Origin: Desulfuromonadales bacterium
Lineage (GTDB): Bacteria; Desulfobacterota; Desulfuromonadia; Geobacterales; Pseudopelobacteraceae
NCBI GenBank assembly: GCA_016650295.1
Contig: JAENWA010000042.1
Span: forward strand, 1-34,867
Length of the DNA: 34,867 nucleotides
Direction: 5' to 3'
The number at the start of each line of letters is the position of its first letter. Within the stretch, counting starts at the first letter, position 1. The notes beneath the pieces are model-generated. The model ran no database searches. It saw only the letters and a list, made by a program, of their open reading frames with translations, and had not been told where the DNA came from. Made by a program: the position numbers and the translations under genes. Shown here piece by piece: positions 3,695-25,306 of this stretch.

Positions 3695-3696
3695 TA

Positions 3697-4548
3697 ATGA
3701 GCAGCCACTTTAAACCTCCCATACGTTCCGATGAACTGAGGCTGCTCAAGGAGTTCATTTCCGAGGTATTCGGGCTGGTGCTGGACAAAAATAATGATGG
3801 TCATTTTACCAAGAAACTTCTTCCAAGGCTTGAAAGCCTGGGACTTGCGACGTTTGCCGATTATTATGCGCATCTCAAATTTTCGCCGCGAGCCAAAGAG
3901 GAACTCAAGCGGCTTATTTCAATTATTACCAACAATGAAACCTATTTTTTCAGGGAAGAATCTCAGTTGAGCGTACTGGCCGATGTGGTGCTTCCGGCCC
4001 TGAAAGAGAAAAAACTGAAAAGTAGAGATAAAAAACTCCGTATCGTTTCTGCCGGTTGTTCCAGTGGTGAGGAAGTCTATACCCTGGCTATGCTCGTCAT
4101 AGAATCAGGATGCTTTCTATGGGATTGGGATATTGAAATAATAGGAGTTGATATTGATCCACAGATTATCGAGAGAGCGAGAAGCGGAGTTTACGTGGGA
4201 AGGGCGTTTCAGACGACACAGCCCCATTATCTTGAACGCTATTTCAGAAAATCTGATGAAGGATTGAAGGTAAAGGAGATCGTCACCAAGATTACGAGCT
4301 TTACCGAGGGCAATCTTCTTCAGATGGATCAGATTATTGAAAAACAGACTGTTGATATTATCTTCTGTCGCAACGTTCTGATCTACTTTGATGATGAATC
4401 CATAAAACGCGGAGTGCATAGTTTTGCTAATGTGCTGCGTCCTGAAGGGCATCTTTTTCTGGGACATTCAGAATCTCTTTCCAGGATAACGAGTAATTTT
4501 ATCTCTGTGAGGTTTCCAGGTGCCATTATCTACAAAAAAAGGGATTGA
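3697..4548 (+). CDS. cheR: CheR-type chemoreceptor methyltransferase (second copy)
   Basis: A second SAM-dependent receptor methyltransferase of 283 residues. It shows the N-terminal NNETYFFRE motif, the SAM site VSAGCSSGEEVYTLAM, then DIIFCRNVLIYFDD and GHLFLGHSESL. It is complete and of normal length. It is clearly diverged from the first CheR (different N-terminus, shorter linker before the SAM motif), so this is not a recent tandem duplication. ATG 3697 lies two bases after the HEAT-gene stop, with GGAGAG about 11 bases upstream. The stop overlaps the start region of cheB. Two different CheR enzymes may serve different receptors or sites; that is inference. Confidence 0.92.
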   Translation: MSSHFKPPIRSDELRLLKEFISEVFGLVLDKNNDGHFTKKLLPRLESLGLATFADYYAHLKFSPRAKEELKRLISIITNNETYFFREESQLSVLADVVLPALKEKKLKSRDKKLRIVSAGCSSGEEVYTLAMLVIESGCFLWDWDIEIIGVDIDPQIIERARSGVYVGRAFQTTQPHYLERYFRKSDEGLKVKEIVTKITSFTEGNLLQMDQIIEKQTVDIIFCRNVLIYFDDESIKRGVHSFANVLRPEGHLFLGHSESLSRITSNFISVRFPGAIIYKKRD

Positions 4549-5615: not shown

Positions 5616-5739
5616 AAGTGTTTCAGAGAGTTAACGTACGTATCTTGTTTATCAGGGTCAGACGATAAGCTGCGCCTTTCAACTCAACAGGTCCCAGGGT
5701 ATTTCAGCCAGACACCTTATCATGTACCGAGAGGGAAAA

Positions 5740-6810
5740 ATGAATGTTACTATACTGAATCAAATCCTGGAAATCGCATTTGAGAAAAAGGTTTCAGATC
5801 TCCATTTCGAGGTTGATAACCCGCCGTTTTTACGAGGATGTGGTCAGTTGATCCGCTCCAGGATGGCGAATCTGACCGCTAGGGACACCGAATTCATTGC
5901 ATCCCAAATTCTGGAGCAGAACGGTTCCCAGCTGACGAGCGATCTCAAGGAACTGGACGCATCATATTCACTTCCCAGTGGAGGACGTTTTCGCGCCAGT
6001 ATCTTTCGACAAAGGGGACAGGTGGGTATTGTCATGCGTGCCATCCCTCCCACTATCCACTCCTTTGAGACGCTGAACCTCCCTCCCGTGCTTGCAGAAA
6101 TCACAAAGGCTCCCAACGGTCTTATTCTTGTCACCGGCCCCACTGGCGCAGGCAAATCAACCACCTTGGCTTCCATGCTTCAATTCATCAATGAAAACGA
6201 GAACTTCAACATCATCACCATCGAAGATCCCATCGAGTTTCTCTTTACCTCTATGAAAAGCTGCGTTATCCAGAGAGAGGTCGGAATCGACACAGCGAGT
6301 TTCAGTTCGGCACTGAAAGCCGTCCTCCGTATGGACCCCGATGTGGTCATGGTGGGCGAAATGCGCGACAGCGAGACAATTGAAGCCTGTATCAAGGCGT
6401 CCGAAACCGGACACCTCGTGCTTTCCACCCTGCATACCCAGGGCGCTGTTTCCACTATTAACCGCATTGTCGGTCATTTTCCGCCGGATGCACAGGAAAT
6501 TGTACGCCACAGGCTGGCGGATATCCTTGTGGCAATCATTTCGCTTCAACTGGTGAAGGACAAGACAGGTAAGTACGTTCTTCCGGTTGTTGAGATCATG
6601 CGTGTCACGACAACCATAGAGGCCTGCATCCGTGAGGGCCGTCTCGATGAGATAGAAAAACATATAGAAAACGGATCGTCACAGTACCAGATGCAAACCA
6701 AGGACCAGCACCTGCTGCAACTCTCCCGACAGGGTTTTATTTCCATTGACGACGCGAAACTAATGACACACTCGATGGATTTCGAACGTAAGCTCTTATA
6801 TGAAAACTGA
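5740..6810 (+). CDS. pilT: PilT-family type IV pilus retraction ATPase
   Basis: A 356-residue hexameric secretion-ATPase family protein. After a small N-terminal domain (KKVSDLHFEV) come the Walker A motif GPTGAGKST (about 133-141), the Asp box IITIEDPIEF, the Walker B VVMVGEMRDSE, the His box GHLVLSTLHT, and a C-terminal IREGR helix followed by MQTKDQHLL, corresponding to the PilT IREGK and TFDQ-like elements. This is closer to PilT than to PilB (far longer) or PilU. Such ATPases depolymerise pili at the inner membrane and drive twitching. ATG 5740 is preferred over ATG 5722 because GAGAGGG precedes it; the spacing is short. The gene lies 124 bases after cheB, so the chemosensory cluster may control pilus-based motility. 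Desulfuromonadales often carry several paralogues, so this may not be the main retraction motor. Confidence 0.88.
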   Translation: MNVTILNQILEIAFEKKVSDLHFEVDNPPFLRGCGQLIRSRMANLTARDTEFIASQILEQNGSQLTSDLKELDASYSLPSGGRFRASIFRQRGQVGIVMRAIPPTIHSFETLNLPPVLAEITKAPNGLILVTGPTGAGKSTTLASMLQFINENENFNIITIEDPIEFLFTSMKSCVIQREVGIDTASFSSALKAVLRMDPDVVMVGEMRDSETIEACIKASETGHLVLSTLHTQGAVSTINRIVGHFPPDAQEIVRHRLADILVAIISLQLVKDKTGKYVLPVVEIMRVTTTIEACIREGRLDEIEKHIENGSSQYQMQTKDQHLLQLSRQGFISIDDAKLMTHSMDFERKLLYEN

Positions 6811-6891
6811 TCGGGCCGGAGGCTGGAATATCTCCGACCGGCTTGCAAAAAGGAACAAATATACTCTTTTGATGAAACGCGTCAGTTGTGA

Positions 6892-6919
6892 TTGACCAGC
6901 GATGAAAAGGTGTCATAAT
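6892..6919 (+). promoter_or_regulatory. Sigma70-like promoter of rluB
   Basis: TTGACC (6892-6897) and CATAAT (6914-6919) are separated by 16 bases and end about 26 bases before the rluB start. A T-rich run follows the -10 box. This is a motif match only. Confidence 0.55.
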
Positions 6920-6945
6920 GTGTTTTTTTTCTCAAAGAGGACACC

Positions 6946-7824
6946 ATGCTCGAACGACTTCAAAAAATAATCTCGGCGGCCGGCGTCACTTCCCGGCGCG
7001 CTTCTGAAGAGCTGATCCTGGCCGGGCGGGTAACCATCAACGGTGTCGTTGTAACCGAACTGGGCAGTAAGGCTGATCCTTCAACCGATACGGTCGCCGT
7101 TGACGGCAAGCCGCTGACTATCGCCTCCAAGAAGCTCTATATCCTGCTCTACAAGCCGGTTGGCTACATGACCACCCTGGATGACCCGGAGGGACGCCCG
7201 CTGGTCACGGATCTGCTGAAAGAGGTCGGTGAGCGGGTTTATCCGGTCGGCCGTCTGGATTACAACACCGAGGGACTGCTGCTGTTGACCAGCGATGGCG
7301 AGTGGGCCAATCAGCTGATGCATCCGCGTCACGAAGTCGAAAAGGAATACCATGTCCGGGTTCGGGGCAAGGTCCATAAAAGTCAACTCGACCAACTGGC
7401 GGGCGGGGTGGAGATCGAAGGGAGAAAGACGGCCCCGGCCAAGGTCAGCATAATCAAGGAAGGGGAGCAGAACGACTGGTTCTCCATCGCCATCCACGAA
7501 GGACGCAACCGGCAGGTTCGGCGTATGTGCGAAACGGTCAGCCTGGCCGTGGTACGTTTGAGAAGGGTGCGTTACGGCATGCTCTCCCTGGGCGCCCTGA
7601 AGCCGGGTGAATTCCGGTTTCTGACTGAGGCCGAGGTCAGCGGGCTTCGCGATCCGCACCTGAAAAATACTGCTATTACACCCAAGGCCCCGGCTTCTAA
7701 CAAGACTGCTGCCTCTGCGCGAACATCACAGCGATCAGGTCCGGCTGCAAAGCCCGCGCATCCCGCATCCTCCGGAAGACGGGCTTCTTCACCCAAAAAA
7801 AACGGGCCTTCCGGAAAACGGTAG
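6946..7824 (+). CDS. rluB: RluB/RsuA-family rRNA pseudouridine synthase
   Basis: The N-terminal S4 RNA-binding domain (residues 1-60, LQKIISAAGVTSRRASEE) is followed by the RsuA/RluB/E/F catalytic domain with GRLDYNTEGLLLLTSDG, where Asp of RLD (about 105) is the catalytic residue. The RQVRRMCE motif near 190 is also typical. RluB converts U2605 of 23S rRNA to pseudouridine; the position in this organism is inferred by family. The last 50 or so residues are a Lys/Arg/Ala/Pro/Ser-rich tail, probably disordered and RNA-binding. AGAGGA before ATG 6946 supports the start, and a sigma70-like promoter lies just upstream. The stop lies inside a hairpin shared with the convergent gene. RsuA-type (16S) specificity cannot be excluded. 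Confidence 0.9.
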   Translation: MLERLQKIISAAGVTSRRASEELILAGRVTINGVVVTELGSKADPSTDTVAVDGKPLTIASKKLYILLYKPVGYMTTLDDPEGRPLVTDLLKEVGERVYPVGRLDYNTEGLLLLTSDGEWANQLMHPRHEVEKEYHVRVRGKVHKSQLDQLAGGVEIEGRKTAPAKVSIIKEGEQNDWFSIAIHEGRNRQVRRMCETVSLAVVRLRRVRYGMLSLGALKPGEFRFLTEAEVSGLRDPHLKNTAITPKAPASNKTAASARTSQRSGPAAKPAHPASSGRRASSPKKNGPSGKR

Positions 7825-13994: not shown

Positions 13995-14213
13995 TCAAAA
14001 GAAACCGTACTTCTGGTCGTCGAATTTCGGCATTACCTTGTCGGTGAGGATCACCTGGGGTTTTGAGGCGATTATTGTGTTAAAACCCTCCAGCCCGTTA
14101 TTTGCAACAAGAACATGATAATTGGCCTTGGCCAGGACATCTTTCATGCATGTCTGCGAGACCAGTTCATCCTCAACAACCAGAACCGAGTTTTTATTTG
14201 GTTCCTGAGCCAT
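13995..14213 (-). pseudogene. Truncated response-regulator receiver domain
   Basis: A 72-residue frame encoding the first half of a receiver domain: the acidic pair in VLVVEDELVSQ and the phosphoacceptor Asp58 in VILTDKVMP. It stops 12 residues later (ending DQKYGFF), before the conserved Thr/Ser and Lys and the last two beta-alpha units. A receiver needs about 120 residues, so this cannot fold normally. No continuation was found in the other frames of the 90 bases that follow. It starts 12 bases after the MshEN-repeat gene and would be co-transcribed with it. A functional mini-receiver is possible but unlikely. Confidence 0.7.
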
Positions 14214-14225
14214 TTTATCCGAATA

Positions 14226-15419
14226 TTACAATTTGTTTATAGGCCCGTATTCACCCATTTTGAAGTTAAAGGCTCCCTTCATATGATGCCGGGGTAACGG
14301 AACTGTTTCTGATGCGTAATCCGTCATGGTGACATCAAACGAGCCGCTTACATGATCTGAAGACACTGAGTCAGGCGTGAATGTGATGGTTCCTTGCTCA
14401 ACCTTGCTCATGGTTGACGGGCTCCCGTTGAAGACCAGTATCTGGCCGGGGAATTTCGCGAACTGCGGATTATCTTCGATGGAAAATACTGTATTGAGGT
14501 GTGGCCAGCCGCCATTAATTTTGGGGACATCAATCCGAATGACACAGCGTGTGTCAATATCCAGCAGGTTTTTAGCGATATTGGCCTGAATTGACCAGAA
14601 GGATTCATTGACGGTTGAGTAGTAGAAGTTTGGAGCTGCAAGGTTGTAATCATCACTGGTTACGGTCAGATAACTGTTTGTGAGTGTCTTACCTGCCTCG
14701 TTGGGGAGTTTTTCAACCTGGGATACACCACCTCCCGCACTTCCTCCGCCACTGCCGCAGCCGGCTAATGTCAGTCCGCCACAGGCAAGTATTGCAGCAA
14801 GTGCCGCGGTTATCAAACTCTGCTGAAGGCGAATGCCGTGTGATACATGATGGGGAGCGGCATAACCATCCTCAACAAGAACCTCGCCCAGTTTTTTAGC
14901 TGAGCTGTACTGTTTCAGGAGGGCGTCGTCCAGCTGCCCGCGTGTGATATAGCCCGCAGTGACCAGGATTTCTCCGAGTCTGAAAGGATTGGAAGTTGTC
15001 GAACCGTTAGTCTGGTTTTTTTGAAAGGCCAGCAGGTTGTCAAGCTGTTCTACTTTCAGAATTCCCAATCGGGTGAATACCTCACCCAGCTTTTCCCCCG
15101 TTATCTTCTGGACGGCAATGGCGTGTTCAAGCTGCTCGTTTGTTATCCGTCCGGCCATGATGAGCAAAGCCCCCAGCATCTGACGAGTGCCGGCAGCTGA
15201 ACGTATGGCATCTTCAAGGTTTCCAAGATGATCCTGAACCGATAGAGCAGCCTTGATTTCTACCGGACCTACCACCCCCATCCTGACCAGAATCTGGCCC
15301 AGAAGTTCGTTGGTCTGTTTCTGTTCCGCCAAGGCCCGTACCAGGTTGCTGCTGGAAAGAAAGCCGCCGTCCATCAGAATTTGACCAAGCAACTGCCTCT
15401 TCTGTCCTTGAGTTGTCAT
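14226..15419 (-). CDS. MshEN/GspE-N-like repeat protein fused to lipobox-anchored domain
   Basis: A 397-residue protein. Residues 9-200 hold six copies of the pattern xLGxxLxxxGxxxxxxLxxALxxQ (for example KLGEVFTRLGILKVEQLDNL and RLGEILVTAGYITRGQLDDA). Pairs of this motif build the MshEN/GspE-N domain, which binds c-di-GMP in several T2SS and pilus ATPases, so three domains are likely. Only the fifth copy keeps the leading Arg of the RLG binding motif. A hydrophobic segment (about 201-220) ends in LAGC (Cys221), a textbook lipobox, then a Gly/Ser-rich linker and about 165 residues of unrecognised, probably extracytoplasmic sequence. ATG 15419 has a strong AGGAG; upstream TTG 15437 is rejected. 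No ATPase domain is present. The function is unknown; a sensor joining a second messenger to the envelope is inference. Confidence 0.8.
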   Translation of the reverse strand: MTTQGQKRQLLGQILMDGGFLSSSNLVRALAEQKQTNELLGQILVRMGVVGPVEIKAALSVQDHLGNLEDAIRSAAGTRQMLGALLIMAGRITNEQLEHAIAVQKITGEKLGEVFTRLGILKVEQLDNLLAFQKNQTNGSTTSNPFRLGEILVTAGYITRGQLDDALLKQYSSAKKLGEVLVEDGYAAPHHVSHGIRLQQSLITAALAAILACGGLTLAGCGSGGGSAGGGVSQVEKLPNEAGKTLTNSYLTVTSDDYNLAAPNFYYSTVNESFWSIQANIAKNLLDIDTRCVIRIDVPKINGGWPHLNTVFSIEDNPQFAKFPGQILVFNGSPSTMSKVEQGTITFTPDSVSSDHVSGSFDVTMTDYASETVPLPRHHMKGAFNFKMGEYGPINKL

Positions 15420-15523
15420 CTGAATCTCCTTTTGCAATCAATGGTTATCAATTTCAAAGCATCATCTCACTACGAATAACGGAACTCATGATTTGATTAT
15501 CAGCTATTGTGAATAGTTAAGTC

Positions 15524-15547: not shown

Positions 15548-16201
15548 TTAATTGTTGTCGGCAGGTGTAATTCCGTGCAGGAGGGCGAATTTGACCAGGG
15601 AGGGGATGTTATTGACGTTGAGTTTCAACATGAGTCTGCTGCGATAGGTTTCAACACTTTTTGGTGAAAGGGACAGAATCTCAGCTATCTCAGCGCTTGT
15701 CTTCCCTTCAGCGACAAACTGGAGAACTTCCCGTTCACGCTGACTCAGACTTTCCAGGGGGCTTGCACAACGGTGCGAATTCCTGGCATACGACAGCCTG
15801 GATGGGGCCTCTACCCCCGCGCCAAAATAATGTTGTCCCTTCATAACCGCGTGAATGGCCTTGACGACCCATGCCCCCGCGGATTCCTTGAGCAGGTAGG
15901 CGTGCGCACCGGCCTGCATCGCTCGAAAGATATGCTCATTGGTATGATGCATGGAGAGAATGATAATCTTGACTGATGGCAGACGTTCACAGATCATGCG
16001 TGTTGCCTCGATACCGTTCATCTCCGGCATGGCGATGTCCATTACGATGACATCGGGTTTCAGCGCCACGGCCTTTTCTATCGCATCGCGACCGTCAAGG
16101 GCTTCACCGACAACGATCATTTCTTCAAGGGATTCGAGAATCATCCTGAGGCCTTCACGTACAACGGCATGGTCATCTGCGATCAAGATTCTGACTGGCA
16201 T
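15548..16201 (-). CDS. NarL/LuxR-family response regulator
   Basis: A 217-residue two-component regulator. The receiver domain (1-120) has the acidic pair in ILIADDHAVVREG, phosphoacceptor Asp55 in VIVMDIAMPEMNG and Lys105 in YLLKES. The LuxR-type helix-turn-helix (about 150-212) reads LSQREREVLQFVAEGKTSAE and then SVETYRSRLMLKL. Such proteins bind DNA as dimers after phosphorylation. ATG 16201 directly abuts the stop of the kinase gene upstream, so the two are translationally coupled and form a cognate pair. Its targets are unknown; the shared 17-bp element downstream of its own gene is a candidate site, but that is speculation. Confidence 0.93.
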   Translation of the reverse strand: MPVRILIADDHAVVREGLRMILESLEEMIVVGEALDGRDAIEKAVALKPDVIVMDIAMPEMNGIEATRMICERLPSVKIIILSMHHTNEHIFRAMQAGAHAYLLKESAGAWVVKAIHAVMKGQHYFGAGVEAPSRLSYARNSHRCASPLESLSQREREVLQFVAEGKTSAEIAEILSLSPKSVETYRSRLMLKLNVNNIPSLVKFALLHGITPADNN

Positions 16202-17275
16202 CTAAACGCCCTCCATGGGTATTTCAACCATTACCGAGGTGCCCTGTCCGGGTGCCGAATCGACAGAAAACGAACCGCCGATCAATTCCGCACGTTCACG
16301 CATGATTGACATCCCCCAGCCCGGCATCCGACGCATTGAAGGCGGCGTGGGGGCACTTCCGGTCCCGTCGTCGCCGACGGTGAACAGCAATCTGCTGTTA
16401 TCCAGATGGAGTGAAATCGTCACGGTTTTCGCATGTGCATGTTTCGCCGTGTTCATGAGAGCCTCCTGGTATATACGGAACAGTGCCGTCTCAACCTCAG
16501 TTTTCAATCGGGGGAAGGGCTCGTCGGCTTGTATGGATACCGCGATACCGGTACGTGAAGAAAAGAGCTCGGCGTGCCAGCGCAGAGCGGAAAGCAGGCC
16601 GTAGTCGTCAAGCACCGGGGGGCGCAGGCCGGACATGATATTTCTGGTGGTGCGACTAATGGTTTCGATCAATCTTGAAGAATCATCGAGCCGTGCGGCT
16701 ACGTTTTTCGTTACGTTCTGTGCAAGCGCATTGCTGATAATCGAGAAATTCATACCCAGGACCGTCAGGTCCCGACCGATTTCATCATGAAGTTCAGTTG
16801 CGAGTTTTCTCCTGAGTTCTTCTTCCATCTCGATCAGTCGTCGAGCGTAATCGCGCAGAGCTTCTTCGGCCTGTTTGCGGGCCAGTATCAGTGTCCAGGC
16901 CTTGAGTGCGTGGTTAACGGTTTCGGGTATATGCGCAAAAGTTTCGGCAGACTTTACAACGTAATCCTGTATTCCCGCCTTCATAACCTGCACAGCAATC
17001 TGTTCACTGCCTTTGGATGTCATCAGGATTATCGGCCAGGCTTCATGTGCCAATGATGCCAAATCACTGCCGTTGCCATCCGGCAAGCGATAATCGGTCA
17101 GAACAAGGGCCGGTTGGTGGCGACTCAGCAAATCCCCCGCCTCCTGAAGTGTACCGGCAATTTCCAGCCTGTAGTTCTCAGGCGCGAGCTGAAACGATCG
17201 TTGAATGGCAATCACATGGCTAAGGTCGTCTTCGACAAGCAGAATCAGGGGGGCATCTGTATTTTTTGTCAACAT
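16202..17275 (-). CDS. Receiver-HisKA_3 histidine kinase (NarX/DegS type)
   Basis: A 357-residue soluble kinase with no membrane segment. The N-terminal receiver domain (LLVEDDLSHV, Asp61 in VLTDYRLPDGNG, Lys in DYVVKS) is joined by a short coiled coil to a HisKA_3 dimerisation domain with His163 in ATELHDEIGRDL. The ATPase domain has an N-box-like YQEALMNTAKHAHA, then VGDDGTG and GWGMSIMRERA. HisKA_3 kinases partner NarL-type regulators, and one follows with no gap. A receiver at the N-terminus suggests that another kinase controls this one, as in a relay. ATG 17275 has only a weak Shine-Dalgarno. Confidence 0.92.
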   Translation of the reverse strand: MLTKNTDAPLILLVEDDLSHVIAIQRSFQLAPENYRLEIAGTLQEAGDLLSRHQPALVLTDYRLPDGNGSDLASLAHEAWPIILMTSKGSEQIAVQVMKAGIQDYVVKSAETFAHIPETVNHALKAWTLILARKQAEEALRDYARRLIEMEEELRRKLATELHDEIGRDLTVLGMNFSIISNALAQNVTKNVAARLDDSSRLIETISRTTRNIMSGLRPPVLDDYGLLSALRWHAELFSSRTGIAVSIQADEPFPRLKTEVETALFRIYQEALMNTAKHAHAKTVTISLHLDNSRLLFTVGDDGTGSAPTPPSMRRMPGWGMSIMRERAELIGGSFSVDSAPGQGTSVMVEIPMEGV

Positions 17276-17364
17276 GCTGTCTCACGGATTTTCTGCGGTC
17301 ATGACTTTTATAGTTGTGGCAGGGGACTTGATCAGCGGAAACCGTGAAATAAGGTTGCAGCATC

Positions 17365-17943
17365 TCACGATTTATTTGCCAAGCCGCCTGCCAGTTCTGT
17401 CTCACATTCTTCAATGATCCTGGCGAGTTCATCCTCTGAGATATCCGACAGTACAAAGGTACCCGTGGCATTCTTTTGAACACGGCTGATACCGGGATAG
17501 CGTTTTTCCAGAACTTTGATCTCCATGGCCTGACTTTTGACCGTTGCCAGCAAACGGCGATTTTCGGCCTCCAGATCATACTTCTCTATGGCCGACATGA
17601 GTGCATAGCGCAGTTGGGTGTCATCCCAGGGCTTCAGGAAAAAGCGATAAATCTCTCCGACGTTAACGGCCCGCATGGCAGCATCCAGGGTTGCATGCCC
17701 GGTCAACAGGATACGGACAGTATTGGGCGAGCGGCGTTTTACCTCGGCCAGCAGCTCTGAGCCCTGCATTCCTACCATACGCTCATCGGAAACAATTACT
17801 TTGACGTTCTTGCCCTTCATGAGTTCAAGGGCCTCGTTGCCGCTGGAAGCGGTAATCAGCTCATAAGGTTCATCTATCAGCGACCGGGTGAGAGCAGACA
17901 AAACATTTGCTTCATCGTCCACCAGCATGACCAGATTTTTCAT
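17365..17943 (-). CDS. RpfG-type receiver protein without HD-GYP output domain
   Basis: A 192-residue protein. The receiver domain (1-125) has MLVDDEANVLSALTR, Asp53 in IVSDERMVGM and FFLKPWDD, signatures normally seen in receivers fused to HD-GYP domains. After it comes a helix-rich, probably coiled-coil segment (about 125-155) and a short acidic tail (FVLSDISEDELARIIEE). No HD, HTH or other enzymatic domain follows, so it may act by protein contact or as a phosphate sink. It ends 89 bases before the receiver-HisKA_3 kinase gene and starts 87 bases after the HD-GYP gene, all on the same strand. Confidence 0.88.
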   Translation of the reverse strand: MKNLVMLVDDEANVLSALTRSLIDEPYELITASSGNEALELMKGKNVKVIVSDERMVGMQGSELLAEVKRRSPNTVRILLTGHATLDAAMRAVNVGEIYRFFLKPWDDTQLRYALMSAIEKYDLEAENRRLLATVKSQAMEIKVLEKRYPGISRVQKNATGTFVLSDISEDELARIIEECETELAGGLANKS

Positions 17944-18030
17944 GATTCATCTCCCGTGTTATGACACTGCGGTAACTGTTCAGGTTGAAAGGCTGAAGGC
18001 TGATGTAAATGCATTTCTTGGGTATTGACT

Positions 18031-18987
18031 TCAAACTTCCAATTCCAGTTCTTTTACAATCTCCAGAAAATTATCCACGATAACCGGATCAAGTACCGTT
18101 CCGCTCATTGCCAGGAACTCGCGCATGGCGACCTCCGGTGGCATGGCTTTCCGGTAGGGGCGATCGGAAACCAGGGCGTCATATACATCTGCTACCGCCA
18201 CTATGCGCGCCTCCAGCGGGATGGCTTCGCCGGACAGGCCTGTGGGATAGCCCAGCCCGTTAAAGTTTTCATGGTGGTAGAGAACAATATTTACGGTTAT
18301 CTGATGCATGCCGGCCGCCCGGGCGACTTCGCCGCCCCAGTCGGGATGCTGGCGGATAACCTTCATCTGATCATCATCCAGTTTTCCCGGAAAATTAAGC
18401 GTGGCTTCCGGTACACCAATCTTGCCGCAGTCGTGGAGCATGGCGCCATGCTCCACGTGGGTAAGTACCTCCGGGCTCAATCCCAGTCGTTTGCCAAGCG
18501 CCACGGAAAATTCCACCACCCGGTCACAATGCCCGCGGGTGTAGTGATCCTTCAGTTCGATTGCCTGAGCCAGAGAGCGGTAAACCGCTTCATCTTTCAG
18601 CCGCAGGGAATTCAACAGTTCGTAGCGCATCACACAGCCATCTACCATATCCATCAGCTCCTGGTCGTCCCAGGGTTTGACCACGAAGCGATACGCCTCG
18701 CAGCGGTTAATGGCGTTAAGCGTCGTCCCCAGATCGGCGTAAGCGGTCATCATGACCCTGATCGTATCGGGAGCCAGATGTCGGGCTTTGCAGAGAAAAT
18801 CAATGCCCGACCCGCCCGGCATCTGGTTATCCGAAACAATTACGGCACATGTGTTCGAATTCAGGAGTTCCAGTGCCTGAGCGGCGCTGTCCGCAAAAAG
18901 AATCCTGTGCGGCGAATCTGCGAACAATCGCCGGAGTGCGTTACGGATCCCAGCTTCATCATCTACAAACATGATAGTTGCCATCAT
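18031..18987 (-). CDS. Receiver-HD-GYP cyclic-di-GMP phosphodiesterase
   Basis: A 318-residue RpfG-like response regulator. The receiver domain has MFVDDEAGI, Asp53 in VIVSDNQMPGG and VVKPWDD. The HD-GYP domain (about 130-315) keeps the full metal and catalytic set: His153, HD at 185-186 in AMLHDCGKIGVP, His214, HH at 238-239 and GYP at 246-248 in FNGLGYPTGL, then VAVADVYDAL. Such enzymes hydrolyse c-di-GMP (some cGAMP) to linear products or mononucleotides. No residue is missing, so activity is expected. Start ATG 18987 (or ATG 18984) overlaps the stop of the receiver-kinase gene upstream, which is the likely cognate kinase. Confidence 0.94.
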   Translation of the reverse strand: MMATIMFVDDEAGIRNALRRLFADSPHRILFADSAAQALELLNSNTCAVIVSDNQMPGGSGIDFLCKARHLAPDTIRVMMTAYADLGTTLNAINRCEAYRFVVKPWDDQELMDMVDGCVMRYELLNSLRLKDEAVYRSLAQAIELKDHYTRGHCDRVVEFSVALGKRLGLSPEVLTHVEHGAMLHDCGKIGVPEATLNFPGKLDDDQMKVIRQHPDWGGEVARAAGMHQITVNIVLYHHENFNGLGYPTGLSGEAIPLEARIVAVADVYDALVSDRPYRKAMPPEVAMREFLAMSGTVLDPVIVDNFLEIVKELELEV

Positions 18988-20228
18988 AAATCCTTGAGAT
19001 GCGAGAAACTGTTTTCGGGATCAATCGGCAGTCGGATTGTGAAGGTAGTGCCCACGCCGACCGTGCTCTGAACCAGCAGATCGCCGCCGTGCCTTTTGAC
19101 GATGTCGAAACTGATGGCCAGTCCGAGGCCGGTTCCTTTACCGATGTCCTTGGTTGTGAAAAACGGCTCAAATATCTTGCCCAGATATTCAGAGGGGATG
19201 CCGCATCCATTATCGGCAACACTGATTTCAACCGAATCTCCGATCTGTGCTGTCGCCAGGGTAATCAATCCGTTTCCATTAACAGAGTGGGCGGCATTTA
19301 TCAGAAGATTCATGACCACCTGCCCGATCTGCTGCGGTCGGCAGAGTACCGGAGGCAGGTCCGAAAGTTGCAGTACGAGTTCAGCCACATATTTTAATTC
19401 GTTACTCACGATGCTGGCCGTGTTCCTGATAACCTCTGTCAAGTTGCAACAAACAGCCTCGTTACCGTCGGCCCGCGCAAAACTTTGCAACTCCTGTACG
19501 ATCTTGGAAACCCGTCGTGAGCCTTCCATCGTCTCGCTTATCATTTCGTGCAGGTCAGCGATCAGATAATCCAGGCTGATCTGCTGTTTCAGGTCTGCAA
19601 TCGCCGATCTGGTGGCTTGATCGGCACATTTTTGAATGGCCTGTTCTTGAGACTCGATAAAGCTGATCAGTTTATCGGTATATTTCCTGAGAGAGTTCAG
19701 ATTGCTGGTGATGTATCCGATCGGGTTATTGATCTCGTGCGCGACACCGGCAGCCAGAAACCCGATGGAAGCCATCTTTTCCTGCTGAATGACCTGCGCC
19801 TGGGACTCCCGCAACTGTTTCTCAACGTTTTTCTTGTCCAGCAGCAGCTTCCATTCACGTAGCGCCCGTTCAAGGGTGCCGGCCATTAATGCAAAAGCCT
19901 CGGGTGATTTTACGATATAGTCAAGCGCTCCGGCCTTGATCGCCTCGACCGCTACCTGCTCGTTGCCGTAACTGGTCATCAGCAGGATCGGAAAAAGGCC
20001 GTCTTCCGCCGGGCTGGTCAGAACTTCGACCGCCCGGCCATCAGGCAGGTTCAGGTCCATAATGGCAACATCGGGTGACTGCTGTGCCGCGTGTTCATGA
20101 AATCCCTGCAACGAATCGACGATCTCGATGTCGTATTTATTGTCGGAAGTTTTGAGGGCACGTCTGATCGCCGTGGAATGCGCGATATCATCCTCAACGA
20201 TCAGAATTTTCAGAGGAGGTGTTTCCAT
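18984..20228 (-). CDS. Receiver-HisKA histidine kinase
   Basis: A 414-residue soluble kinase. The N-terminal receiver (ILIVEDDIAHS, Asp58 in VAIMDLNLPDGR, DYIVKS) leads through a coiled coil to a HisKA-type phosphoacceptor His164 in [14 protein letters not shown]. The HATPase domain has NLLINAAHSV (N box), VADNGCGIP (G1), FEPFFTTK and GTGLGLAIS (G2). The linker [17 protein letters not shown] is common in this kinase group. ATG 20228 is chosen: an upstream in-frame codon at 20273 would overlap the preceding gene by 34 bases, and GAGAG precedes 20228. Its stop is inside the start of the HD-GYP gene, so the two are translationally coupled. The receiver suggests control by another kinase. Confidence 0.92.
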   Translation of the reverse strand: METPPLKILIVEDDIAHSTAIRRALKTSDNKYDIEIVDSLQGFHEHAAQQSPDVAIMDLNLPDGRAVEVLTSPAEDGLFPILLMTSYGNEQVAVEAIKAGALDYIVKSPEAFALMAGTLERALREWKLLLDKKNVEKQLRESQAQVIQQEKMASIGFLAAGVAHEINNPIGYITSNLNSLRKYTDKLISFIESQEQAIQKCADQATRSAIADLKQQISLDYLIADLHEMISETMEGSRRVSKIVQELQSFARADGNEAVCCNLTEVIRNTASIVSNELKYVAELVLQLSDLPPVLCRPQQIGQVVMNLLINAAHSVNGNGLITLATAQIGDSVEISVADNGCGIPSEYLGKIFEPFFTTKDIGKGTGLGLAISFDIVKRHGGDLLVQSTVGVGTTFTIRLPIDPENSFSHLKDL

Positions 20229-20239
20229 TGTGCTCTCTT

Positions 20240-20683
20240 TCAAGTCTGCGGGTATTTGTTCAAAGTCAGCCAATAGCCCCCGAACGCGTCCAGCAGGCTG
20301 GAAAACTGCGAGAAATCAACCGGTTTGACCAGATAACTGTTGGCACGATACTCATATGCCTTGGTAATATCCGACTCACTTGCCGAGGTTGTCAGGATCA
20401 CGACCGGTATCTGGAGCAGAGACGGGTCTTCCTTTATCATTTTAAGTACTTGCAAACCATCAACCTTGGGCAGCCGGAGGTCCAGCAACACAATTCCGGG
20501 GCGGGGAGAATTGACGGGATCGCTGTAGTCAGCGCGTCGATACAGGTAGTCCAGTGCGGCCTGGCCGTCAGGCACCGAAATCATGCGGTTGGCAGTCCGG
20601 AGCTTTTCAAAATTTCTCCTTACGATCTCGGCATGGGCCGGATCATCTTCCACCAGTAGTATAATGAACTGTTCAGTATGCAT
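20240..20683 (-). CDS. Stand-alone receiver (Rcp1/CheY-like response regulator)
   Basis: A 147-residue single-domain receiver. It has ILLVEDDPAHAEIV, phosphoacceptor Asp68 in IVLLDLRLPKVDG, Thr in ILTTSASE and Lys in YLVKPVDF. The extra loop between the third helix and the Asp strand (ADYSDPVNSPRPG) is typical of Rcp1-like regulators paired with phytochrome or PAS kinases. With no output domain, it probably passes phosphate on or acts by protein contact. ATG 20683 is preferred over GTG 20692 because GGAG is well spaced only for the former. Its gene precedes the receiver-kinase gene by 11 bases, so the two are co-expressed. Confidence 0.92.
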   Translation of the reverse strand: MHTEQFIILLVEDDPAHAEIVRRNFEKLRTANRMISVPDGQAALDYLYRRADYSDPVNSPRPGIVLLDLRLPKVDGLQVLKMIKEDPSLLQIPVVILTTSASESDITKAYEYRANSYLVKPVDFSQFSSLLDAFGGYWLTLNKYPQT

Positions 20684-20832
20684 GTTTGACACTCCGGAAG
20701 GTTTAACTTCATAGATCAGTTGTAGCCTACCGTAAAACTGAAAAGTTTCAAGCAGAACCGTATAATCAAATTAGATTTTTTCAAAACTCCGGGTTGTTTA
20801 AATTTTTCTTTGTTTGTTCGGCAACGCAATCT

Positions 20833-22059
20833 CTACATGTTTTCTTTGCAAGCATCCGGAAGGGTAAACCGGAAGCAGCTGCCTTGCCCCACACCAGCGG
20901 ATTCAACCCGGATATGGCCGCCGTACAGCTCTATGATACGCCTGACCATTGTCAGACCCATGCCGACACCGCCGCTGTGTTGGTCCAGTTGTTCAAATAT
21001 TCCGAAGACCTTTTCCTGGTGTTCGGGGGCGATACCAATGCCGTTGTCGCAGACATAAAAGACTGTTTCTCCCGGCTGTATTTCGACGCCGATTTCGATC
21101 AGTGGCGCAGGTTGGTCGCCCATGTACTTGACGGCATTATCCAGCAGATTCTGCCAGATCTGCAGCAGACGACGCCGGTCACCACACAGGAGCAGGTCGG
21201 CGTCGCTGACCCGGACATCAACCCTGCCGGCACTGATCTGACCCGCCACTGCATCCAGCGCCTCTGTGGCCAGCTCCCGGAATGTGATCTCTTTATGGGG
21301 GAGAATTGACCGGCCGATTCGTGACATTTCCAGCAATTCATTCAGCAAGGCCTCCATCCTGTTGGCTGCGGAATGGATGAACTCCAGGTCCTTGCCGATA
21401 CGCTTGTTGTTGGCGGCGGATATGTCCTGCTCCAGATAACCGAGGAAGGTTTTGAACGTTATCAGCGGGCTGCGCAGGTCGTGGGAAACGGAGTAGATCA
21501 TCTGTTCAATTTCGTGGTTCTTCCTGTTCAGCTCATCTGCCACCTGTTTGCGTTCGGTGATATCGTGGATGATGTGGATGCTGCCGGTCAATTCCCCGGC
21601 AGTGTCATACAGCGGGGTCACGCTGATGGAATAGTCACCGTGCAGCACCGGCAGATAGACCTCTTCCTTGTGTGAGGCACCATCTTTCAGCAGTTTGGCG
21701 TGCGGGCAGTAGTCGGGATGGGTATCCTGTTGATGTATAAGGCGGCAGCAGTGCTGGCCGATGAGAGCGGTGGCGTTAAGCTGCAGTTTTTCCCTCATGG
21801 TCCGGTTGGCCCTGACGATACGGTGCTCCCTGTCCAGGATGGCGATCAGGTCCGGCATGCTGTCGAAGGTGTTCTGCCATTCATCACGTGATACTCTGAG
21901 GGCCTGCACAGCGCGCCGGCGCTGGACGAGGTAGATTGCAAGAGGTACAAGGAACACCAGGATCAGCACCAGAAACTTGGCTGTTTCAAGCGCTTTACTG
22001 CTCCCGAGTAACGATTGCAGCATGGTTTTTCCAAACGTTGCACCGGCGGATTCCGCCAT
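20833..22059 (-). CDS. Membrane PAS-domain sensor histidine kinase
   Basis: A 408-residue kinase with one transmembrane helix (about 27-46, FLVLILVFLVPLAIYLV) and no sizeable periplasmic loop, so sensing is probably cytoplasmic. The PAS domain (about 57-172) contains a Cys/His-rich loop CCRLIHQQ...DYCPHAKLL. HisKA has His193 in YSVSHDLRSPLITF. The HATPase domain has NLLDNAVKY, VCDNGIGIAP, FGIFEQL and GVGMGLTMV, complete. This DLRSPL-type kinase group is similar to phytochrome-like kinases, whose usual partners are Rcp1-type receivers; one is encoded next downstream. ATG 22059 is preceded by AGGAGA. The 140 bases to the next gene are AT-rich and may hold a promoter. Confidence 0.93.
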   Translation of the reverse strand: MAESAGATFGKTMLQSLLGSSKALETAKFLVLILVFLVPLAIYLVQRRRAVQALRVSRDEWQNTFDSMPDLIAILDREHRIVRANRTMREKLQLNATALIGQHCCRLIHQQDTHPDYCPHAKLLKDGASHKEEVYLPVLHGDYSISVTPLYDTAGELTGSIHIIHDITERKQVADELNRKNHEIEQMIYSVSHDLRSPLITFKTFLGYLEQDISAANNKRIGKDLEFIHSAANRMEALLNELLEMSRIGRSILPHKEITFRELATEALDAVAGQISAGRVDVRVSDADLLLCGDRRRLLQIWQNLLDNAVKYMGDQPAPLIEIGVEIQPGETVFYVCDNGIGIAPEHQEKVFGIFEQLDQHSGGVGMGLTMVRRIIELYGGHIRVESAGVGQGSCFRFTLPDACKENM

Positions 22060-22096
22060 CTTGTTTCTCCTGGTTTACTGGATGACCCTTCACCAG

Positions 22097-22129
22097 AGAC
22101 CTGCGAGGTTTTGAAAACCTCGCAGGTCT
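22097..22129. repeat. 33-bp perfect palindrome, AGACCTGCGAGG family
   Basis: 16-bp perfect arms (AGACCTGCGAGGTTTT and its complement) around a single G. It lies in the gap upstream of the membrane PAS kinase start. There is no T-run, so terminator function is doubtful. It is related to 10223-10256. From general knowledge, this palindrome type recurs widely in environmental bacterial genomes. Confidence 0.8.
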
Positions 22130-22138
22130 TTCTCTCAA

Positions 22139-22162
22139 CCCTTCGACTCCGCTCAGGGCAGG
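22139..22162. repeat. Widespread CTTCGACTCCGCTCAGG repeat
   Basis: The segment reads CCTTCGACTCCGCTCAGGGC. It translates on the minus strand to CPERSRRVE and on the plus strand to LRLRSGQA, both hallmark spurious peptides of a repeat seen in very many bacterial genomes. Only one arm of the usual palindromic unit is obvious here. Confidence 0.6.
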
Positions 22163-22172
22163 CCCTCATCTC

Positions 22173-22200
22173 TCAACCTTCAACCTTCAACCTTCAACCT
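22173..22200. repeat. Four tandem TCAACCT heptamers
   Basis: Four perfect copies of TCAACCT in a row. The stop codon of the large PAS kinase gene lies inside the third copy, and the last residues of that kinase (VEG) are encoded by the repeat. Copy number is expected to vary by slippage. Confidence 0.85.
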
Positions 22201-24985
22201 GATGGTTAAGCGGCAGCCGCACGGTAAAGCTTGTGCCGATACCGACCTCGCTCTCGACGGTTATCTCGCCGCCATGCTGCTTGATGATGTCGTAGCTGAT
22301 CGAGAGCCCCAGGCCGGTGCCCTTGCCGACCTCTTTCGTAGTAAAGAACGGATCGAAGATACGGGTCAGATTTTCCGGGGCGATACCCTTGCCGGTATCG
22401 CTGATACGTATGAAAATATCGCCGTTTTCATTAAACGTTCTGACACGAATGATACCGTGTCCTTCGATGGCGTGGGCCGCATTGACCACCAAATTCATGA
22501 ACACCTGACTGAGTTTTTGGGGATAGCAGTTCAGCAGGGGGAGTTGCGGGTCGTAATCCAGCTCCACATCGGCCACGTATCGAATCTCGTTGCGGGCCAT
22601 GTTGAGGGTACTATCCAGGCAGTCATTGATGTTGAACGGCTTGCACTGGTCTTCATCCGCATGGGAGAAACTTTTCAGGTCATTAACGATGCCGCGCACC
22701 CGTCCCGTGCCCTCCAGCGATTCTTCCAGCAGTTTGTGGAGGTCGTTCAGGATAAAGTCGATTCGCATTTTTGTCCGGATTTCGTCCAATAATGCGACGG
22801 TTTCCAGGTCGCCCTTCTTCTGAACCGATTCAATCACGGCATTCTCGAAATCCTTAAGCCGTTGCATGTACTTGGTCATAGTGGTGAGATTGCTGGAGAT
22901 AAAACCCATCGGATTGTTGATCTCGTGGGCCACACCGGCGGCCAACTGTCCGATTGAAGCCATTTTTTCCTGCTGGAAGGCCTGGGCTTGGGTCTGCTGC
23001 AGCTCGGCGTAGGCCTTCTGAAGGTTTGTGTTCATCTTGCGAAACTCGGTCGTTTCGTGGATGGTGACAACTGAACCCCGCACGTTGTCGGTACCGACCT
23101 GTTTCAGTTCGTTGAAGAGCAGCTCAAAGTGGCGGGCACCGCCATCGCTGACCATATGTCCGTGTATGTCATCGCAACTGATGATCTCCATGCCGGAACT
23201 GATAAACAGCTCAAGACAATTGAGGCCGAGGATCTGGTTGTAGAAAAGTCCGGTGAAGGTTGTGACGGCCCGGTTACAGCGTGTGATGCCGCCGGCGGGA
23301 TCGCACATCAGAACCATTTCGGGGATGCTGTCCAGGGTATCTTCCCATTCCTGTTTGCCGATCGTGACCAGGGAGAACATTGCATTCAGTTCGCTATGCT
23401 TGAGCAGCAGTTCCTCTGTATTGTTCAAAAGCTCAGCTTCGTATATTTTCCGATGGGTAATATCCTCATTGACGGCCAGGAAGCGGATGATCTTCCCCTG
23501 ATCATCCATGATCGGGGAGATGGAAGCGCTTTCCCAGTAAAGCTCGCCGCTTTTCTTCTTGTTGTGAAATTCCCCGTGCCAGCTGTTGCCCCGGGTGATG
23601 GTTCGCCAGAGTTCGGCATACTGATCGGGCGGCGTTTCTCCTGACTTGAGAATCCGCGGATTCTGACCCACAGCTTCTGCGGCGCTATAGCCGGTCAGCG
23701 TGCAGAATTTGTGATTGACGTACTCGATTGTACCGTCTGGGTCGGTGATAACGATGGCATTGGGGTTGTTTTCAACGGCCCAGGAGAGTATGCGCTGTTC
23801 TTCTTCGGCAAGCTTGCGCTCGGTCATATCCAGCAGGGTCTCTATGGCGGCAACTTTGCGGTCTTTTCCGTCATAAACCGGGGCCGCATCGAAATACAGA
23901 TAACACCGGCGGCCATTGATGTTTTCATACCACCCCTCTGACTGAAGTCCCCCCGGGACATGCTGCGAAAGCCGGATGGAACCGTAGAGCTGAGCCGGCT
24001 GCGCCTCGTCTCCCGACAGGATGATGTCGGCCAGCACCGGTCGCGGGCCCGGATAAAAAGGCTGCCACTGGCGGTTGCTGCCGATCATCTCATCGGCCGT
24101 CAAGCCGGTAAGATCCTGCATGGCGCTGTTCCAGACCAGGATGCGGTGTGCGGCATCCAGGACAAAGATCGGTACAGCGGCCTTGTTGATCAGTTCTTCG
24201 GCAAATGACCTTTGATAACGCATCTCAGCCTGCATCCTGCGAATCAGGGTGATATCGGTGAAGCTGCCCCGCATCCCCAACAGATCACCCTGATCATTAT
24301 ATACCGTGTGGTGCAGATGGCTGACCCAGCGTTTTTCACCATCTTTCCTCACAATGATCAGCTCGATATGCTCACGAGTCCCGGAGGCTTCAACCGGCTC
24401 GTGCCGATGTTGGTCCCATTTCTTACGCGAAACGGGATGAATGATTCTGTCCAGCAGGTCAGGTGCTGCATAGAATTCTTCATCATGGAAACCGGTCAGA
24501 TCCAGACAATTGGGCGAGATAAACCGCGTCGTTCCACCCGGTTCGCGCCAATAGGCGACCTCGGCCGTAAATTCAGCCACGATGCGATAGGTTTCCTGAG
24601 ACACCAGCAGGTTCTGATGCTGGGAGTCAAATTCTTTGACCATGCTGTTCAGAGCTATACCCAACTGCCTCAGGTCACCGCTGAGAGTATCGGGCAGCAT
24701 ACGGTCGTGGCCCTGCCTGGTGTGCATGCCGCTGATGTGGTCGATGACGAGTTGCAGGGGGGCCATCAACGTACCGATTACCTTCCGGATAATCAGCCCG
24801 GACAACAGTGCGATCAGTACGAATGAAATTACAAGTTTTTGGATTAAGTCGGTCTTATTTGGTTGGGAGCTGAAAAGGTAAAAAGTGATGGAAGAAGTCA
24901 AAGCCGGGGCGAGGATTGACATAACAACCGCGTAGATTGTTATTTTTGACCTGAGAGACATATCTCTGGTACTGGCAGGCGCCAT
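22187..24985 (-). CDS. Multi-PAS membrane sensor histidine kinase
   Basis: A 932-residue hybrid-free kinase. Two hydrophobic segments (about 14-38 and 48-68) are separated by only about 10 residues, followed by a HAMP-like stretch. Four PAS-type domains follow: one near [14 protein letters not shown], one at [15 protein letters not shown], one at [15 protein letters not shown] with PAC, and one at [15 protein letters not shown]. HisKA has [14 protein letters not shown], and the HATPase domain has [29 protein letters not shown] and GTGLGLSIS. It is complete. ATG 24985 is chosen (GGGG upstream); an in-frame TTG at 25042 is rejected. The C-terminus ends inside tandem heptamers. The signal sensed is unknown, but the lack of a periplasmic domain points to cytoplasmic or redox cues. 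Confidence 0.92.
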
Positions 24986-25306
24986 AAATGCCCCAATGCG
25001 GAATCGATTTCTACAGCTTATCGCAACATGTTTATATTGCAACCTATCTGAATGTAAAACACTTGTATGTAGGGAAAGCTTGAAAGTAATTAATCCTCAA
25101 TCCGGGCTGGAATAAGATCCGGCGGAGCGCCCGGAATCAGTACCCGTTTGACGACAACGGCCCGGAATTGCCATGAAGGTCAACACCGGGCCATGTATCG
25201 GAAACATGTCTGAAGCAGGAGAAGATGTGTTGATGCTACGGTTTGAGGTTAAGGACGTGATCGTGCTGATGAACGTACGGGCAATAGCCGCGACAGTCTC
25301 TGTGTC
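24986..25306. other. 321-base intergenic region between rseP and the multi-PAS kinase
   Basis: It holds the second copy of the 17-bp shared element (25068-25084) and a 7-bp perfect inverted repeat GGCCCGG (25159-25165)/CCGGGCC (25186-25192) with a 20-base loop and no T-run. No gene is supported. Minus-strand frames downstream of the rseP stop stay open for about 70 codons but have no convincing start. Confidence 0.5.
25068..25084 (-). promoter_or_regulatory. 17-bp shared upstream element, copy 2
   Basis: TTCAAGCTTTCCCTACA on the minus strand, 82 bases before the multi-PAS kinase start and identical to 15524-15540. An ATTAAT box again lies just upstream. It is a candidate promoter or operator. 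Confidence 0.4.

Follow-up and report, generated by a model that had tools for sequence, protein, structure and literature searches.

The window, a stretch of 34,867 nucleotides from a Desulfuromonadales bacterium, contains a gene for a 397-residue protein whose apparent anatomy is well supported: three MshEN-type domains lead directly into a signal-peptide-like stretch with a lipobox, and an all-beta domain follows. We propose, with a probability of about one half, that the N-terminal part is an extended sensory signal peptide that would place the export or release of single surface proteins under c-di-GMP control. The features of the gene and its immediate surroundings are as follows.

14226..15419, minus strand: the whole gene, three MshEN-like domains, lipobox signal peptide and all-beta domain (sequence, start context)
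15426..15430, minus strand: AGGAG, ribosome-binding site of the gene (sequence and start context)
15234..15392, minus strand: MshEN-like domain 1, residues 10-62, motifs LLG..Q and LLG..Q (NCBIfam, motifs)
15021..15179, minus strand: MshEN-like domain 2, residues 81-133, motifs MLG..Q and KLG..Q (NCBIfam, motifs)
14823..14981, minus strand: MshEN-like domain 3, residues 147-199, motifs RLG..Q and KLG..Q (NCBIfam, motifs; the best-modelled domain)
14760..14822, minus strand: signal-peptide-like hydrophobic segment, residues 200-220 (relatives, and a model in which it is continuous with the last MshEN helix)
14757..14768, minus strand: lipobox LAGC, residues 218-221, with Cys221 the predicted lipidation site (sequence, relatives)
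14229..14717, minus strand: all-beta C-terminal cargo domain, residues 235-397, of a family that includes ordinary lipoproteins (relatives, model)
13995..14213, minus strand: truncated 72-residue receiver (REC) reading frame, starting 12 bases past the gene's stop (Response_reg, 7.1e-8, first half of the profile only)

On the minus strand, the reading frame opens with an ATG at 15419 and closes with a stop at 14226; residues 7-220 make up the part that recurs in other proteins, referred to here as the cassette. An earlier note, made from the letters alone and naming no strand, had described six motifs forming MshEN-type repeats with no ATPase, a lipobox as the tie to the envelope, and a C-terminal domain of no known family, and all three descriptions held. 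The NCBIfam model NF053729 matches three stretches, and a Pfam scan of the protein finds no ATPase domain of the type II/IV secretion ATPases (GspE/PilB) and none of the EAL, GGDEF or HAMP families of LapD-type receptors. LAGC follows a hydrophobic stretch and is itself followed immediately by a linker of the Gly/Ser type, GSGGGSAGGG. Neither Pfam nor NCBIfam gives a family above cut-off for the C-terminal domain.

The published MshEN consensus is RLGxx(L/V/I)(L/V/I)xxG(L/V/I)(L/V/I)xxxxLxxxLxxQ, and the same source, in the excerpts used here, reports that the isolated MshE bundle binds c-di-GMP at 0.35 uM and that a non-binding GspE is without such ligand residues (PMC5013675). The first motif position was later widened to R/K/L, and excerpts of that second source describe in Thermus PilF a similar triple of MshEN domains, the first of which does not bind (PMC11731258). 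In the window protein the motifs, each of 24 residues, start at residues 10, 39, 81, 110, 147 and 176 and form three pairs (10/39, 81/110, 147/176) with a spacing of exactly 24-5-24. None of the six matches the strict consensus (R/K/L first), four (10, 39, 147 and 176) match a relaxed pattern of the published type, and all six match a looser pattern that was devised after the sequence was known. Their first residues are L, L, M, K, R and K, so that five of six are R/K/L, the exception being Met81, while the third-position glycine and the final glutamine are present in all six. A spaced core of hydrophobic-Gly, Gly and Gln, itself picked post hoc, occurs six times in the protein and at most twice in any of 20,000 residue shuffles. 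Independent evidence comes from the match to NF053729 (c-di-GMP_motif, MshE-related c-di-GMP-binding domain) at 2.9e-43, scoring 145 bits where the cut-off is 38; no MshEN-type family in Pfam matches the protein even at E values up to 10. A profile of the region finds MshE (5htl, 1.1e-11) and PilF (6f8l, 9.9e-24) among PDB sequences. Membership in the MshEN family is supported by family score and fold, though not by the strict consensus.

Conservation among relatives is concentrated in the second and third domains. Across the 65 near-complete cassettes described below, the third-position glycine is present in all 65 in each of the four motifs of domains 2 and 3, the final glutamine in 62, 65, 64 and 64, and domain 3 opens with R/K in 62. 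Domain 1 is degenerate in the relatives, with R or L at the first position in 16 of 65 among the residues listed and the second glycine in 27 of 65. From these sequences we infer that the cassette binds c-di-GMP.

The AlphaFold model is modest, with a mean pLDDT of 60, values of about 71-82 for residues 151-200 and values below 50 from residue 211. On this model a four-helix bundle is recognizable for domains 1 and 3, and the best seven structural matches are all MshEN, GSPII or PilB N-domains, the next being fumarase at Z 7.0. The top match is MshE with c-di-GMP (5htl), on domain 1, at Z 10.5 and 2.2 A over 60 residues, a score in the range (below 13) where the tool urges caution for helical bundles; domain 3 superimposes on 8pe0 at 1.1 A over 56 residues (Z 5.9). 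Foldseek returned nothing with E below 0.001 for either cassette or cargo, the best E for the cassette model being 0.39. The cargo domain is modelled as all-beta with a pLDDT of 86, and its best match is LpqH (4zjm, Z 7.6 over 104 residues). This score lies under Z 8, the level below which the tool warns of common arrangements, so we read no function from the match.

Several properties of the hydrophobic stretch resemble those of a Sec signal peptide, which is supportive of that assignment but not proof of it. Judged by eye, the stretch directly follows the last motif position in all 65 proteins, that position being glutamine in 64. The mean net charge is +3.0 before it and -1.3 after it, and a 19-residue Kyte-Doolittle mean of 1.6 is reached by 66% of the 65. 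LAGC at 218-221 conforms to the lipobox pattern [LVI][ASTVI][GAS]C behind a hydrophobic core. Lipoboxes are found in four of the 65, three with window-type cargo and one beta-helix protein from a Nitrospiraceae contig whose cargo is unrelated (L055); the truncated L099 has GC where the lipobox would be. A strict AxA site is present in 30 of the 61 proteins without a lipobox, against 19.3 expected by shuffling, and in 8 of 61 for a stretch farther downstream; a loose AxA pattern, weak and without a control comparison, is present in all 61. The segment begins near residue 200, and not at an N-terminal position with a short charged n-region; the homologue L168, discussed below, has an intact short version. 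The median hydrophobicity of the stretch is 1.67, compared with 1.97 to 2.39 in the signal peptides of nearby fimbrial-operon proteins; as a test of cleaved signal versus permanent anchor, hydrophobicity discriminates poorly and was dropped as support.

A lipobox in the middle of a protein raises the question of whether one protein is really present. The earlier note had allowed for a frameshift or fusion error, for an internal start, and for homologues in which the two halves are always separate genes. The genome is a draft in 123 contigs, which would favour an artefact of assembly or frameshift joining two genes, but the same fusion is found in genomes G043 and G050 at 50-54% identity, the continuous architecture is present in 65 proteins, single-contig genomes included, and the median dN/dS of the cassettes is 0.14 (70 non-independent pairs); we regard such an artefact as already refuted by the relatives and give it practically no weight. 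Homologues are found both fused and unfused, so the halves are not always separate. An internal start would give two products from one gene, a separate lipoprotein and a tail that is an unrelated soluble sensor, and an in-frame ATG, GTG or TTG is indeed near the junction in 56 of the 65 genes. Against this, no Shine-Dalgarno match of five or more bases was found at the junction in any of the 65 genes (the best match never goes beyond four bases, a length reached in seven), while the best match at the main start is at least four bases in 61 of 65, the figures at both places being the best among several candidate codons. A start within the hydrophobic stretch would also leave scant positive n-region, and we consider two products very improbable. 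The mid-protein lipobox is the work of neither a frameshift nor, on present evidence, a second start.

The cassette is found well beyond this genome. In the first search for relatives, residues ~5-220 recurred at 42-60% identity before unrelated C-termini in some of 57 genomes; 54 of the 57 have some match at an E of 0.001, though in many cases what is matched is another MshEN protein. An order-level profile search found matches at 1e-20 in 45 of 141 genomes, at least six of them solely through partial or other MshEN proteins, and a sample of the phylum gave 13 of 395 genomes at 1e-30, the window's own included. A scan of named genomes yielded 201 relatives, of which 80 loci were taken, with the last 21 (L101-L121) matching other proteins weakly. 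Among the named genomes that carry the cassette are Geobacter sp. OR-1, several Geomonas species, Desulfuromonadaceae, Smithella, Nitrospirota and an uncultured acidobacterium. The host genome itself encodes another cassette protein on contig C102, in this case a cytochrome.

For comparison we used 65 near-complete cassettes, out of 74 distinct reading frames; the 65 come from Geobacter, Geomonas and kin, other deltaproteobacteria, Nitrospirota and one acidobacterium. "Distinct" here means non-identical over the first 150 residues, so that the near-copies L017, L049 and L058 count separately, and the nine left out (L026, L094, L099, two fragments in L100, L031, L030, L033 and L032) are truncated, partial or other MshEN proteins. 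The profile used for selection spans part of the signal region, and cassettes without a signal are therefore under-counted. Other genomes had been proposed as the place to look for the same architecture, and the continuous layout from cassette to cargo is indeed present in all 65 proteins. Two loci of Geomonas oryzae, L094 and L095, have equal match length and score, the L094 reading frame (206 residues) being without the last motif and signal peptide. The Nitrospiraceae contig L055 carries two genes of the cassette cluster, at 3301-4539 and 5992-7815, with a gene of a glycosyltransferase cluster after the second.

What follows the cassette varies widely. The cargo labels for the 65 proteins are FN3/Ig (32), fimbrial-operon beta domain (16), cytochrome (8), CAP (4), the window's lipoprotein domain (3), right-handed beta-helix (1) and an acidobacterial domain without family (1). 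Pfam scans covered representatives of each class, with the window class covered by the window protein, and found no family for the representatives of the fimbrial-operon and acidobacterial cargoes. Automatic clustering joined the FN3 and fimbrial cargoes through a single link at 28% identity (L042-L084, E 6e-4), and the two were split by sequence pattern. Laid on the cassette tree, the labels change nine times against a minimum of six, so some exchange of cargo among cassettes during evolution is likely. Clustering of the genes around 58 named loci revealed no universal partner; the top cluster, histidine kinases, is present at 19 of the 58.

Several cargo families also exist behind plain signal peptides. 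Domains of the window's cargo type are found without the cassette, behind an ordinary-looking lipoprotein signal, and often with a C-terminal CxxCH segment. Genome G043 has both forms: L014 carries the cassette, and L168 has a short signal peptide with a nearly identical core and lipobox. This pair indicates, at the level of sequence, that the cassette was added ahead of an already complete signal peptide. In the stand-alone relatives (L027, L089, L162, L163 and others) the beta domain is often trailed by one CxxCH haem-binding segment, so the window protein may be related to a redox lipoprotein while lacking the haem.

Only the fimbrial-operon cargo has a recurrent gene setting, adjoining genes for a PapD-type chaperone and/or an usher in 12 of 15 loci listed, some of them clipped by contig ends. 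Of 38 distinct reading frames with this cargo, 22 have six or five motifs before the signal by a motif pattern; two have three motifs, three have two, one has a single motif and seven have none, while the remaining three carry a receiver domain there. The seven motif-free cases are fragments (L100, L201), a degenerate remnant (L210) and four that look like plain signals (two in L191, L198 and L199). L196 has a single MshEN domain and lies within an SCPU-PapD-usher operon, and L197 has half an MshEN domain before the signal. In L211 and L212 the N-terminus matches Response_reg (1.8e-20 and 3.5e-20), and the gene overlaps one for a PAS/HisKA/HATPase kinase. The order of receiver, signal-peptide-like segment and fimbrial-operon beta domain is seen at L211:6442-7332 and L212:6765-7658, and also in L209. 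A counter-example is L208:1165-1875 (reverse-complement coordinates), with one MshEN domain and the fimbrial-operon domain and no hydrophobic segment, which may be cytoplasmic or a gene in decay.

Beside the gene in the window, at 15548-25042 on the minus strand, lies a run of two-component genes comprising a LuxR-type regulator, hybrid kinases, single receivers, an HD-GYP response regulator and PAS kinases. The HD-GYP neighbour had been put forward as a special link to the cassette protein. We do not find support for this, because the two-component array, HD-GYP included, is absent from the flanks examined (about 4.5-6 kb on each side) of the orthologues L047 and L051. The HD-GYP protein retains its Pfam domains, so a general role in c-di-GMP turnover is still possible for it; the host genome has 20 GGDEF matches. 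Elsewhere in the window are a T2SSE-type ATPase gene of pilus or secretion type (5722-6810, plus strand) and an IS200-like transposase (33702-34634, minus strand) with a weak, sub-cut-off DnaA-C match at its end.

A parallel to the cassette is found in riboswitches. FN3 genes regulated by the GEMM riboswitch have been described in Geobacter bemidjiensis (PMC2996986), and control of Geobacter cytochromes by GEMM riboswitches, with many Geobacter aptamers favouring cGAMP, is described in another report (PMC6456294), each as given in the excerpts used here. All 32 FN3 cassette genes were scanned, and four of them (L016, L124, L044, which has the L125 sequence, and L072) have an aptamer of the c-di-GMP-I class directly upstream on the same strand, and L016 and L124 also show a strong hairpin and a T-run ahead of the ATG. 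For these four genes, control by cyclic dinucleotides is predicted at the levels of both RNA and protein. The Geomonas loci L022 and L143/L063 differ: there the aptamer lies in front of the divergent gene, which encodes an FN3 paralogue that has a plain signal peptide and is 53% (L022) or about 48% (L143, L063) identical to the cargo of the L022 cassette protein. L076 and L078 also have aptamers close by, on the opposite strand. Rfam gives no match in the window, and no aptamer lies directly upstream of the cassette genes scanned for cytochromes (8 of 8), CAP proteins (4 of 4) and lipoproteins (3 of 3); the scan of the fimbrial class covered L025 alone of 16 genes. Rfam searches of 18 loci at E values up to 1 gave no additional riboswitch.

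In the mechanism that we propose, the MshEN tail of about 199 residues would stay in the cytoplasm while the hydrophobic helix enters Sec in an N-in/C-out orientation. Lgt and signal peptidase II would then lipidate and cut the protein at Cys221, and the mature lipoprotein would go to the outer membrane, a destination suggested by the lack of Asp at position +2 under the sorting rule from E. coli. The least certain step is that c-di-GMP bound by domains 2 and 3 would alter the way in which the translocon or the peptidase meets the signal; the hydrophobic helix begins at a ligand-type residue, Gln199, so binding of the messenger could have this effect. If the tail is cut off, any regulatory role would have to precede cleavage. 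Release of the window lipoprotein would then track the level of c-di-GMP, and in the sister proteins the cassette would gate FN3 adhesin-like, cytochrome and fimbrial-operon cargo by way of signal peptidase I.

The chief rival to this proposal is that the protein is never cut and is a transmembrane receptor, in which a permanent anchor would let c-di-GMP binding on the inside change the periplasmic domain much as in LapD. MshEN and REC domains are classic signalling inputs, at two of the three REC loci the gene overlaps one for a histidine kinase, and in the model the last MshEN motif and the hydrophobic stretch share a single helix (residues 189-218), albeit at low confidence at its end. An uncut receptor is harder to reconcile with the lipobox or AxA-like site behind the segment and with cargo relatives that have plain signal peptides, and the representatives of the cargoes that were scanned, being structural or redox domains of the surface, are implausible as outputs of a signal at the inner membrane; we think this reading unlikely, though it deserves to be taken seriously. 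Somewhat less probable again is a docking role, in which the MshEN domains would guide the precursor to a platform for type II secretion or type IV pili, or to a cell pole, with c-di-GMP minor or merely setting affinity. The domain family is typical of traffic ATPases (the GspE/PilB N-domains), the cargoes are surface-like, and the fimbrial class adjoins chaperone-usher genes, all of which would suit docking. A REC domain can occupy the same place, however, and no secretion or pilus genes other than chaperone-usher genes are prominent among the 25 largest clusters of neighbours, which are partly annotated. Moreover, nearly all 65 proteins retain the ligand-type Gly and Gln in domains 2 and 3, unlike the non-binding GspE as described in the excerpts of its source (PMC5013675).

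We extend the proposal of a sensory signal peptide more tentatively, and at something short of even odds, to a general form of modular export gating. Sensors of the MshEN or REC type placed before intact signal peptides would switch Sec export or processing post-translationally, the tripled cassette having spread in Geobacter-type bacteria over adhesin-like proteins, cytochromes, fimbrial-operon proteins and lipoproteins, with some genes stacked with a GEMM-class riboswitch. Targets of c-di-GMP include transcription, pilus motors, polysaccharide synthases and adhesin proteolysis. Control inside the exported protein's own signal peptide, if true, would be a different layer of c-di-GMP action, would explain how each surface cytochrome or adhesin could be set separately in electroactive bacteria, and would amount to a portable export switch. 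Natural pairs, in which the same cargo family is found with and without the cassette, with REC or with a riboswitch, make the gating directly testable.

LapD-type receptors have a cytoplasmic c-di-GMP sensor, a membrane helix and an envelope domain, using degenerate EAL/GGDEF domains and a HAMP domain with a periplasmic output. The cassette proteins share the order of cytoplasmic sensor, membrane helix and envelope domain, but the receptor domain is another one, a cleavage-type site follows the helix, and the cargo is the surface protein itself. Autotransporters with extended signal peptide regions have a long N-terminal extension, made of short peptides; the cassette is likewise a long extension before the signal, but its domains are of a ligand-binding kind. 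No description of MshEN domains ahead of a signal peptide was found among the titles, abstract openings and excerpts of the literature searched (the excerpts being from PMC5013675, PMC11731258, PMC12002112, PMC2996986, PMC12943098, PMC8835794, PMC6456294 and PMC12285248), which does not imply absence from print.

The closest likeness is to the MshEN/GSPII domain of MshE and the PilB/PilF N-domains, with which the cassette shares two 24-residue motifs, a 5-residue linker and a four-helix bundle; Thermus PilF, going by excerpts of its description (PMC11731258), also has three consecutive domains with a degenerate first. Unlike MshE, PilB and PilF, the window protein has no ATPase that we could find, a spacing too tight for an MshEN_C subdomain, and a signal peptide with exported-type cargo directly attached. 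It resembles bacterial type II lipoproteins in its LAGC lipobox, Gly/Ser tether and beta domain, and its cargo homologues are ordinary-looking lipoproteins, but the lipobox lies at 218-221, behind a sensory tail of about 200 residues. With the GEMM riboswitch (c-di-GMP-I, RF01051) of Geobacter the cassette would share cyclic-dinucleotide control of FN3 proteins (PMC2996986) and cytochromes (PMC6456294), as far as the excerpts of those reports describe it, with the difference that cassette control would be post-translational and act on the protein; four cassette genes have both. The parts are ordinary, and it is their assembly that is unusual.
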